A model generated the notes under the pieces. That model was not told where the DNA came from and made no database searches. It saw only the letters and a program-made list of their open reading frames with translations. Below, in pieces: positions 8,359 through 11,555 of a stretch of DNA of 11,555 bases. The stretch comes from a bacterium (GTDB lineage Bacteria; Zixibacteria; MSB-5A5; GN15; FEB-12), in assembly GCA_030629485.1 (NCBI GenBank), contig DAOVOW010000026.1:1-11555 (forward strand). Reading direction: 5' to 3'. Each line of letters begins with the position of its first letter. Position 1 is the first letter of the stretch. The position numbers and the translations under genes were made by a program.

Positions 8359-10038
8359 TTACAAGAGCCGACGTTTTGTTAGATTGCAGCCGCCCGACGC
8401 GAAAAGCCCACCGTAAACGGTGGGGCACTCAGGCTTCCCCTGGGTTTCTCGGTTGACGGGCGCGACAGAATTATCGTCTCGGAGAGGTGGCTGAGCGGTT
8501 GAAAGCGCTGGTCTCGAAAACCAGTGTACCTTCGGGTACCCAGGGTTCGAATCCCTGCCTCTCCGCTTTTGTTGAGATTGAGCCCCTTCAGCGATGAAAC
8601 TGAAGGGTTTTCTGTATGTGGCACTTAGACTTGCGCCGTCCAACTGGCAGTTCGAATATAGCAAATCGACCAGTTTTCGCTTTTCGAACGGATTCTGCGT
8701 ATCCCAAAGTGCAGGAATCTTTTGCGCGAGTTCCAAGATTCTCTCCGCCGTGAACAACACATCGGGTCTTTCACTGCCCAGGTTGTCCAGTCGGGCTTGT
8801 AGCTGAATTCTTTCAGCGTCCCACGTCACTGATAGTCGCTTCCAGTGGTCCTCTGAAATGGATCCTTCGAGCTTGTCCAGGTACGCCTTCTCGGACCACG
8901 TGTCCAGCTGAGACAGGCGGACCTGGATCCGTCTTTGTTCTGCCAGGATTCTTGATGCCGCTGAAGCATGGCGTTTTGAGAGGCGAGTCATAATACGGTC
9001 GGCTTGTCTCTGAGTGAGGACGAGGGGAGCGTTCATCGTGGAGAACTGATCGACTATGTCAACCTCCCTCACGTACACGAGATCGCAGCCGCCTCGCATG
9101 CCTGTGCAATGATAATAGACGTACTTACCTTTCTTGATTTCAGCAGTGATCTTGCAGCCGCAGTGAGCACACACCATGAGGTTACCAAAGGCAAACTCCT
9201 TGCGATTCAATTGTGGCTTGTTGTGCCGTCTGAATGCCCTCTGCGTCTCTTCGAAAAGTGATCGGCCTATTAGCGGTTCATGACCGCCTTGGTAGATCTC
9301 ACCTGCCCAGCGGAATTCGCCATAGTAGAACGGATTCTTGAGGATCCGCTCTACCTGACACATTGTGATAGGCCTGCCGCTTCTTGGCGTCGTGAGAGAG
9401 CGCGAACGGGCATAAGCGGCCAAGGCTCGAAGCGACATCTTGTTTCCAGCATAGAGTTCGAACAACTCGACAATATGATGAACTCGTGCAGGATCTCTGA
9501 CAATACTACCAGAATCTGGATCTCTCAGATAACCGTAGGGGATGGTGCCTCCTGGATATTCGCCCTGGTTGGCTTTCTCTCGCATGCCCTTCTTGACCTC
9601 TTCACTGAGATTGTCGATGTAGTTTTTGGCAATGAGAGCTTTGATCCCGAACATGAACTTCTCATGCGAGCGAGAGTCCTTACTGAGTTGCGCGTTCTCT
9701 TTGACAAGGTGAATGACAAGCCCATGTTCATTCATGAGTGTATCGAGAGTAGCTATGTCTTTGAAGTTGCGGGACAGTCTATCGGTTTTCTCGCAAAGGA
9801 CGTGCTTTACACTCGGATTCGCTTCGAGATACCGAAGCATCTCATTGAATCTAGCCCGACCCGCGTTCTTAGCTGATTCCGCTTCCTGGAATTTTCTGAC
9901 AACCTCGAAGCCATGTGTCGCGGCGTACTCTCGCAGCAGCTTCAGCTGAGCATCGATTGAATACCCCTCCCGCTCTTGTTCCTTAGAGGAAACGCGGGCA
10001 TACGTAATACATTCAGAATGCGATATGCTGTGTCGCAC
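8359..10038 (-). CDS. Large serine recombinase / site-specific integrase with zinc ribbon
   Basis: A 559-codon open frame. The N-terminal resolvase domain (about 10-150) has the catalytic serine in [10 protein letters not shown] (Ser17) and the [12 protein letters not shown] motif with active-site arginines (residues 83-94). A recombinase DNA-binding domain follows ([20 protein letters not shown], then [15 protein letters not shown]). A zinc ribbon has Cys290, Cys293, Cys311 and Cys318, and then comes a coiled-coil-like region (about 355-425). The family's usual ending, [24 protein letters not shown], is reached near residue 485. From residue 492 to 520 the frame is the antisense of the tRNA-Ser gene, then host leader DNA, so the last 68 residues are probably not part of the original protein. 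The start is a GTG with AAGG upstream, 11 bases after the protease stop. It probably inserts and excises the element in which it lies. Confidence 0.88.
8400..8424 (-). terminator. Candidate Rho-independent terminator pointing left, upstream of kdsA
   Basis: On the minus strand CCCACCG pairs with CGGTGGG (8407-8413 with 8418-8424, 7 bp, loop of 4) and is followed by CTTTTCG. It would stop leftward transcripts arriving from the recombinase side before they reach kdsA. The T-run is only four bases, so efficiency is uncertain. It lies inside the terminal extension of the recombinase reading frame. Confidence 0.45.
8481..8565 (+). tRNA. tRNA-Ser (anticodon CGA)
   Basis: An 85-base class II tRNA. 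The acceptor arm is GGAGAGG (8481-8487) with CCTCTCC (8558-8564) and discriminator G8565. The anticodon stem is CTGGT/ACCAG around CTCGAAA, giving anticodon CGA (8515-8517), which reads UCG. The long variable arm forms GTACC-ttcg-GGTAC, typical of serine tRNAs. The T arm is CAGGG-TTCGAAT-CCCTG. CCA is not encoded. A TTGACG at 8453-8458 could be a -35, but no -10 with good spacing follows. The gene marks the border between the host Kdo region and the accessory DNA to its right. Confidence 0.97.
8584..8613 (+). terminator. Rho-independent terminator of tRNA-Ser
   Basis: CCCTTCAG (8584-8591) and CTGAAGGG (8600-8607) form a perfect 8-bp stem around the loop CGATGAAA, followed by TTTTCT. It lies 18 bases past the tRNA end, in the right orientation to stop tRNA transcription. 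It also falls within the 3' end of the opposing recombinase gene. Confidence 0.75.
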
Positions 10039-10049
10039 TGACTCGAACC

Positions 10050-11555
10050 TTAGATGCGAATCGGTATTTCAATTACAGGCCTCAACTGTTGAAGGACAGG
10101 ATAACGGATTAACGTCTTGTTGTAAACATCTTGCGTCCTCGGAGCCTTGACGGTGACAACAAGGGCATAGGGAATCTTACCCGCATCCGCTACGTCCCTT
10201 CCTGCAATTCGGGGCAAGTAGTGAACATCGAAGACAGGGTTGCTGATACTAGAAGACCTCATTCTCTTGCAGTAGTGAAGTACTGTCTCCCACTTGTGTG
10301 CCTCGGCTCGTAACTCTTGCTCGGTGGAGCCAAAAACCCGCTTTCCAAAGAAGCTTGATCCGTCAGCATGCTGTTGCCGATTATCTCTCCTTTTCTGATC
10401 GTGAGGCCGAAAAGCAACCTCAATACCACTGCGTGTGTAATTGATGGGATCCTGAGGATCCGTCATTGTCGCGTAGCAGATGGTGGCGGATATACTGACA
10501 TATCCGACCAGATCTTCTGGCACAGGGATGGGCACTCGCATCCACTTCTTGGGTTTGAGAGTATCCTGATAGAGAATATGCACATCTCCTTCACCGCATA
10601 CCACGAGGTCCTCAACATTAGAAGGAACGTTCCCCCAGCCTACTTCCTCGCGGCGGAGTCCTCGATCGTGAGCCCGGTGTACTAGAAGGGCCTTTACTGC
10701 AAGTGGACTAAGCACGGTTCCGAAGTGCGCTCTTGCTGAAACTCCCAACCTAAGGGCATTGGGTGAGGCGAAACTGGTGCCAGTGGTAGCACGGGCATGC
10801 CCCGAGTTACTGGCGTCGAGAACCCAAAACGGCTCTTTTCTGGAGCCGCCAAATGCTACCACGTCCGGCTTAACGTATCCGGGGCATCGTCCAGGTCCCA
10901 CGCAACTGTAACTAGCGCGTTTCCAGCTTTCGCCTCGGCTATCACATGCCCCGACTCCGAGAGCGTTCACGCAATCTGAAGGAGGCTGAATCCGCGTGTA
11001 CCCTGTTTCAGGGTTTTCGTCGCCTCGGTTCCCAACGGCAACTGAGGCCAGCAATTCGCCCTTCCCAAAATGCTGGTCCAGGACGGTAGTCCATGCACTT
11101 GGATCATCATCTTCGATTGGAAGATCCGGTCCGATACTGAGATTCGCGTACTCATATGGATTGTTATCTAACACGCTCGTGATGCGTGCTAAGACGTCGT
11201 ACAACTCTCCTTGGGGGTCATCTTCTGTTCTGTCGTCCAGGACACGGATATGATCTACATTCATGGTCGGGTGCGACGGGTCAACATCTTCGTCCAACGG
11301 GCCAAACAGAAGGGCAGAGGTCACAGCAAGCCCGTGCTGCTCACATGCCGGAACAGGTTTTCCAATCCCATTCGGCTCATAACTGGTTACCCAGTTATCG
11401 AGTCCGTGATCTTCTGGAAGCCCTCCGTCAAAAACAACTACACGAAGATCACTATCTAAGGCTGGCTTGGAAGGAAGCTTCACTGGAAAGGACTCAACCC
11501 CCGGAACGTCCCGAAAGAGCGGGCGAAACTGACGAAGCCGTGGCATCTCACGCAG
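10050..11555 (-). CDS. Cytoplasmic S8 (subtilisin-like) serine protease, IetS-like; 5' end probably beyond the window
   Basis: At least 501 codons, open to the window edge. The first ATG inside is at 11546, but the frame continues upstream in sense (LRE before MPRLRQFRPLF), so the true start may lie beyond 11555. Counting from that ATG, the triad is Asp40 (RVVVFDGG), His71 (CEQHGLAVTSALLFG) and Ser258 (GTSFASPNA), with oxyanion-hole Asn173 (AVGNRG). There is no signal peptide or propeptide, so it should act in the cytoplasm. About 200 residues follow the catalytic domain, including YATMTDPQDPINYTRSG and VAFRPHDQK. From memory, this layout (NLSIGP..DDDPSAWT..LD, GPGRCPGYVKPDVVAFGG, the DPQDPINYTR tail) belongs to the subtilases paired with an AAA+ ATPase in the IetAS anti-phage system. 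The recombinase starts 11 bases after its stop, so both share a transcript. Confidence 0.85.
   Translation of the reverse strand: MREMPRLRQFRPLFRDVPGVESFPVKLPSKPALDSDLRVVVFDGGLPEDHGLDNWVTSYEPNGIGKPVPACEQHGLAVTSALLFGPLDEDVDPSHPTMNVDHIRVLDDRTEDDPQGELYDVLARITSVLDNNPYEYANLSIGPDLPIEDDDPSAWTTVLDQHFGKGELLASVAVGNRGDENPETGYTRIQPPSDCVNALGVGACDSRGESWKRASYSCVGPGRCPGYVKPDVVAFGGSRKEPFWVLDASNSGHARATTGTSFASPNALRLGVSARAHFGTVLSPLAVKALLVHRAHDRGLRREEVGWGNVPSNVEDLVVCGEGDVHILYQDTLKPKKWMRVPIPVPEDLVGYVSISATICYATMTDPQDPINYTRSGIEVAFRPHDQKRRDNRQQHADGSSFFGKRVFGSTEQELRAEAHKWETVLHYCKRMRSSSISNPVFDVHYLPRIAGRDVADAGKIPYALVVTVKAPRTQDVYNKTLIRYPVLQQLRPVIEIPIRI

Follow-up and report, generated by a model that had tools for sequence, protein, structure and literature searches.

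The stretch of DNA described here (the window, 11,555 nucleotides (nt)) is the complete contig DAOVOW010000026.1 of a Zixibacteria genome (GCA_030629485.1), referred to below as contig C294 of genome G000, which is assembled in 437 contigs and is 83% complete. At its right end, a tRNA-Ser(CGA) gene (8481-8566, + strand, recognised by ARAGORN) and a serine recombinase gene (10038-8359, - strand) lie tail to tail, and an S8 (subtilisin-like) protease gene, ending at 10050 on the - strand, is located 11 nt behind the recombinase. This layout had been described in an earlier reading of the DNA by a model (the sequence-only reading) and is confirmed here. We propose that these genes belong to a genomic island which uses the intact tRNA gene as its integration target, whose recombinase carries the recombination arm in its own coding sequence and whose cargo is a defence module of the IetAS type. 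We consider this reading quite probable.

The recombinase open reading frame (ORF) is open over its full length. Its conserved body comprises 491 codons with a GTG start (8566-10038, - strand) and contains Resolvase (6.9e-29), Recombinase (4e-12) and Zn_ribbon_recom (8.4e-8) domains of Pfam, in the order expected of a large serine recombinase, a class of the phiC31/Bxb1 type. NCBIfam records similarity to the Ccr and XisF recombinases, but the window enzyme scores below the curated NCBIfam cut-offs of CcrA/B/C and XisF. By its geometry the 3' part of the gene falls into two sections. The last 12 element-coded codons (8566-8601) extend from a YRKPF motif to the discriminator base 73 of the tRNA, at position 8565. 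They are followed by a host-coded tail of 68 codons and a stop codon (8359-8565), which runs antisense through the whole tRNA gene and continues for 122 nt beyond its 5' end.

The same arrangement recurs among relatives of the recombinase. Twenty loci were fetched, which are related to each other and not independent draws, and 18 of them have a recognised tRNA gene at the recombinase 3' end. The remaining two are L141, which runs off its contig, and L143, which abuts a broken tRNA-Asp gene that ARAGORN did not report. When the window is added to the 18 relatives, the recombinase frame continues antisense into the tRNA in 19 of 19 cases, and its frame relative to base 73 is identical in all of them. 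The stop codon starts inside the tRNA in 17 of the 19; it is situated just past the tRNA 5' end in L128 and 122 nt past it in the window. From the conserved motif, which ends with PF or NF, to base 73 there are 37 nt in 17 of the 19 genes and 82 nt (15 extra codons) in the other two. The tRNAs involved are those for Asp (6), Asn (4), Ser (6), Gln (1), Arg (1) and Glu (1), and this occurrence at six amino-acid specificities is another difference from the known large serine recombinases. Two further sites were observed in the same genome: a contig-cut recombinase end at tRNA-Ser(TGA) (C310, L142) and, recognised by eye, a tRNA-Gln gene with a fossil of the last recombinase codons in the same 12-codon spacing (C143; L004 1453-1600).

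Recombinase tails were also compared among database homologues, namely the best 120 of 3915, in 111 of which the motif is recognisable. A tail was counted as tRNA-like when, at codon 13, it reached 60% identity or more with an antisense translation of a tRNA (library of 39), and shuffled tails served as control. This holds for 88 of the 111 tails compared with 227 of 2220 shuffled ones, a control that is not near zero because very short tails such as RG-stop pass this threshold easily. Codon 13 is the best offset for 75 of the 111 tails, and 86 of them are tRNA-like when judged by motif. Eight distant serine recombinases (26-34% identity) were used as another control: six are without a tRNA gene in the fetched stretch and two are located at tRNA-Asp. 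Relatives of the window enzyme at E<=1e-30 include two phage and three plasmid records (27-31% identity), and seven loci were found in viral contigs (28-35% identity).

Comparison with genomes of the same genus locates the junction. The tRNA-Ser(CGA) gene is about 99% identical to its counterparts in G001 and G005, and these two loci match the window only over 8347-8569 and 8349-8572. As the homology breaks off shortly after the tRNA 3' end, the DNA to the right of it is inserted or foreign. A third genome, G002 (contig C16), has a recombinase end identical to that of the window over 72 nt (8563-8634), beginning from the last tRNA bases; these 72 nt would be the element end and putative att arm. 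In G002 this identical arm adjoins a broken tRNA-Asp gene and not tRNA-Ser. P0121, the nearest homologue among those listed from the database (92% identical), ends with RG-stop, which is the tRNA-Asp form. On sequence grounds, the identical arm and the tail of P0121 thus place one recombinase lineage at different tRNAs, with the junction at the tRNA end. In G001 the same tRNA-Ser(CGA) 3' end holds a phage-type integrase ORF (L167 8037-9170; recognised by eye), so that this site may be a hotspot.

The far border of such islands was searched for in 11 stretches, each 7-79 kb long. In two of them the tRNA 3' end is repeated cleanly, over 15 nt at a distance of 17.0 kb for a tRNA-Arg and over 16 nt at 40.2 kb for a tRNA-Asn, and both repeats start 14 nt before base 73. 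Two more stretches are ambiguous, L137 with a repeat of 19 nt that runs into recombinase-like codons and L125 with two repeats of 13 nt; the other seven contain no exact tRNA repeat longer than 11 nt. For the two bounded islands, the tail of the integrated form and the tail computed for the circular form diverge around residue 18 after the motif, with lengths of 24 versus 33 and 24 versus 40 residues. The tails of two database proteins, P0124 and P0125 (DEFxNW), resemble the computed circular-form tail of the L144 island (DEFRNF), and these are perhaps free or tandem copies.

On the other side of the tRNA, the window differs from its relatives as well. The kdsA gene adjoins tRNA-Ser(CGA), with the join at 8347-8348, and the two loci are separate in G001 and G005. 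A chimeric contig was considered, since relatives keep these loci apart. Contig C168 of the same genome, however, holds pieces of both displaced flanks, from the kdsA and the tRNA-Ser sides, 2.1 kb from each other. This points to a true rearrangement, although the exact reciprocal join was not read, and it seems to have occurred in this genome some 130 nt to the left of the tRNA gene. Next to the rearrangement point lies a dispersed repeat (~30 nt; ~8305-8335, within ~8300-8348), which has many copies in related genomes.

The protease ORF is assigned to Peptidase_S8 by Pfam. Six IetS models of PADLOC match it, the best being PDLC02197 (E=1.5e-36, profile positions 256-727 of 749), and the homology to IetS extends well beyond the S8 domain. 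The protein is 67% identical to P0001, a homologue of 758 amino acids, and the alignment begins at residue 252 of the latter. Its frame, 10050-11555 on the - strand, is open to the contig edge over 501 codons, and most of the 120 listed relatives have 744-758 amino acids. The ATG at 11546, taken as the start in the sequence-only reading, is therefore an internal codon; about 250 N-terminal residues are missing and 501 of about 756 are left. A signal peptide, which the sequence-only reading took to be absent, would lie in this missing part. Full-length relatives begin with, for example, MAEQTRFLIG or MAERSNFLIG, and by eye they have no evident signal peptide. S8 enzymes use Asp, His, Asn and Ser residues. 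The corresponding columns are invariant across 35 aligned rows including the window, in agreement with the earlier statement that all catalytic residues are present.

The position of the protease among subtilases was examined in a quick, midpoint-rooted tree. The 48 input rows comprised the window, 10 relatives out of the 120 listed, 22 IetS loci (one in three of the 65) and 15 ordinary subtilases from this and related genomes, four of which were dropped as no domain could be cut, leaving 44 rows. The window and all 32 IetS rows are split from 10 of the 11 ordinary subtilases by a branch with support 99 and length 3.27, in a tree for which the program warned of long branches meeting; the eleventh is a fragment of 45 residues. 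A grouping with secreted or housekeeping subtilases, which the sequence-only reading had named as a possible refutation, is not seen, and a housekeeping subtilase finds support neither in the tree nor in PADLOC. An AlphaFold model of the full-length relative P0001 has a mean predicted local distance difference test (pLDDT) score of 70, with values below 50 at residues 425-492, and Foldseek returned subtilisin-like proteases as its top matches, with low overall template modelling (TM) scores. As a prediction, the model confirms the subtilisin fold and adds nothing on mechanism. Solved structures were also searched by sequence: the IetS alignment leads to subtilisins, the AAA domain of an IetA homologue is Cdc48/VCP-like, and nothing named IetAS was found among the rows listed for either.

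Gene order in homologous loci completes this picture. A scan with an alignment found 57 genome loci, where a scan with a single sequence found none, and eight viral loci were added. Directly upstream of ietS and on the same strand, 64 of these 65 loci have an AAA+ ORF of 360-520 amino acids with Walker A and Walker B motifs, separated from ietS by -23 to +35 nt; the 65th locus has only 114 nt upstream. Six of the 64 ATPases were scanned, and all six match IetA. Based on the PADLOC match, the gene order of the 57 and eight loci and the tree, the protease is an IetS as far as sequence can tell, as the sequence-only reading had suggested. Because of the linkage in 64 of 65 loci, IetA is likely to be encoded directly upstream of ietS, beyond base 11555. 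The best AAA match in the genome (C387) was considered as IetA; it is FtsH, with 581 bits against a cut-off of 600 in a truncated ORF. The remainder of the 83%-complete genome yielded neither IetA nor the IetS N-terminus. The ATPase partner expected by the sequence-only reading thus has its counterpart in nearly all homologous loci and was not located in this genome itself.

Among 132 genomes of the phylum, IetS is present at E<=1e-60 in only one, namely this genome, and ietS was therefore probably acquired. Of 45 plasmid records with some match, 30 match over 80% or more of the query, as do eight viral contigs. In the window, ietS and the recombinase gene are probably co-transcribed, being 11 nt apart on one strand. 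The ietS stop codon (10052-10050) overlaps an AAGG sequence (10051-10048) located 9 nt before the recombinase GTG, so that a coupling of recombinase translation to ietS is possible.

The cargo of related islands was screened by PADLOC at E<=1e-10 in the 11 islands with more than 6 kb visible. Seven of them carry recognised defence genes: type I restriction-modification in L130 and L140, a type III methyltransferase in L128, L131 and L138, HEC-05 in L131, and QatC-like and type IIG enzymes in L132 and L137. The other four gave no PADLOC match among only 3, 2, 2 and 1 ORFs scanned. The earlier designation of the locus as a defence island receives indirect support from this cargo. Seven islands (L128, L130, L131, L132, L137, L138 and L144) have a start module in common, composed of the serine recombinase, a tyrosine recombinase and a protein of 166-252 amino acids, after which the cargo follows; two of the 166-252 amino acid proteins were scanned and had no Pfam match. 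The window has ietS in the place where related islands have the tyrosine recombinase gene.

Several traits connect the locus with known systems. With IetAS (IetA/IetS in PADLOC, IteA/IteS in NCBIfam) it shares the homology of its protease to IetS and the AAA+ IetA directly upstream in the family of that protease, but its ietS has a serine recombinase gene 11 nt downstream and its IetA would lie outside the contig. IetAS has been placed, in passages of two papers (PMC11878078, PMC9958689), on the Pf phage PfAC08, listed with tRNA-Gly, and on an integrative and conjugative element (ICE) in Salmonella. These are integrating elements as well, yet the carriers named in those passages are a Pf phage and an ICE and not serine-recombinase tRNA islands. 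The same passages, from 2023 and 2025, call the mechanism of IetAS unknown. Genomic islands of the Islander type resemble ours in being inserted at a tRNA 3' end with the tRNA left intact and, in two related islands, in the displaced tRNA end of 15-16 nt at the far border. They differ in that the junction gene here encodes a serine and not a tyrosine recombinase, and in that its frame crosses into the tRNA antisense strand. Tyrosine integrases are described as known users of tRNA genes in part of one paper (PMC4383910), and a 2014 database paper remarks in one passage that serine enzymes are not known to target tRNA genes. No report of serine integrases at tRNA genes came up in a literature search of titles and abstract openings in which few subscription journals were covered.

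According to our proposal, the right end of the contig would be the attL boundary of a chromosomal island inserted at the 3' end of tRNA-Ser(CGA). Sequence geometry shows that in this group the recombination arm is embedded in the last codons of the recombinase itself, with a frame that, after integration, continues antisense into whichever tRNA is occupied. The serine recombinase would catalyse this tRNA-directed integration. The cargo at this end would be an IetAS-type defence module, with IetS seen and IetA predicted directly upstream. By analogy with Cdc48- and proteasome-type machines, IetA may spend ATP on engaging or unfolding a target, or on gating the protease, IetS may cut phage or host proteins during infection, and the pair would in this way defend against phage.

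A number of observations, gathered here and in the next paragraph, weigh against this proposal. The integrative element assumed by the sequence-only reading is backed by synteny and by the recombinase family; its far border was not seen in this genome. The second copy of the tRNA 3' end, which that reading expected to mark the border, did not turn up: a search of the 83%-complete genome with the 3' 16-mer, one mismatch allowed, returned one other copy, inside a complete tRNA-Ser(GGA) gene on C70. A comparably clean far repeat is absent from nine of the 11 stretches of related loci, and the joined empty site of the tRNA-Arg island of G023 has no single contiguous match in 61 genomes, among which the right flank of this island was not found next to the tRNA either. 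At the threshold used, 23 of the 111 database tails are not antisense tRNA. The fetched flanks of the 65 IetAS loci contain no close relative of the window recombinase and in two cases a distant one. Among the 14 loci in which 2.5 kb or more is visible, nine have a related tyrosine recombinase gene behind the serine recombinase (three of the proteins were scanned, all PF00589). Mainly for this last reason, and because of the use of tRNA genes by tyrosine integrases, we retain the explanation that the tyrosine recombinase is the real tRNA-directed integrase and the serine recombinase a passenger fixed at the island end. It appears unlikely to us, as a search with four query proteins found no tyrosine recombinase in the other five loci, which include the window (2.99 kb visible right of the tRNA) and stretches of 58 and 78 kb, and the fixed geometry does not change with its presence. 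Moreover, the distant pair L058 and L059 (26% identity) also ends with RG-stop inside tRNA-Asp in the same frame; the property is consequently wider than this clade, which at the same time means that the distant control is not clean. The locus might also be a decayed remnant with a non-functional recombinase or IetAS, or a chimeric contig. A decayed copy does exist at the tRNA-Gln gene of C143, where by eye only the last recombinase codons are left, and the contig joins kdsA to a tRNA-Ser from which it is separate in relatives. With the recombinase open over its full length, ietS open to the edge with its conserved residues, and the two displaced flanks so near to each other on C168, we regard decay or chimerism as improbable.

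The function of the cargo invites other doubts. IetA is not seen in the contig, which ends inside ietS, and the seven of 11 islands with defence cargo stand without a background rate for defence genes near tRNAs. Against a cut-off of 900 bits for the NCBIfam IteS equivalog, the window fragment scores 93 and four full-length relatives 98-142, and two ATPases of relatives reach 171 and 239 where the cut-off is 510; the protease relatives scored all fall outside this narrow model, in which the locus differs from IetAS as curated there. Taken with the Cdc48/VCP-like AAA domain of IetA, these scores would suit a genuine protease/ATPase pair whose role is protein quality control or a different stress response and not phage defence. 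The sporadic distribution of IetS in the phylum, its matches on plasmid records and in viral contigs, and its presence in an island family that also carries restriction systems speak against such a role, which we consider not very likely. An ordinary secreted or housekeeping subtilase, situated by chance at the island end, would agree with the generic S8 domain of Pfam and with the predicted fold of P0001, which is that of subtilisins in general. It is hardly credible in view of the well-supported branch that sets IetS apart, long-branch warning included, and of the IetS homology running past the S8 domain.

If the island proposed here is real, it ties IetAS to a vehicle that carries restriction systems in related genomes. 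More far-reaching is the idea that a large group of serine recombinases is itself tRNA-specific, with a C-terminus written by the target and a different tail made from the circular form; as a whole we hold it to be rather improbable. Were it true, the recombinase tail, 68 residues long in the window, could signal the integration state and alter the stability or directionality of the enzyme. Should the group target tRNA genes, it would supply enzymes for insertion at conserved tRNA ends, and the odd tails of many database recombinases (RGRRDSN..., LPRLDSN...) would be explained.

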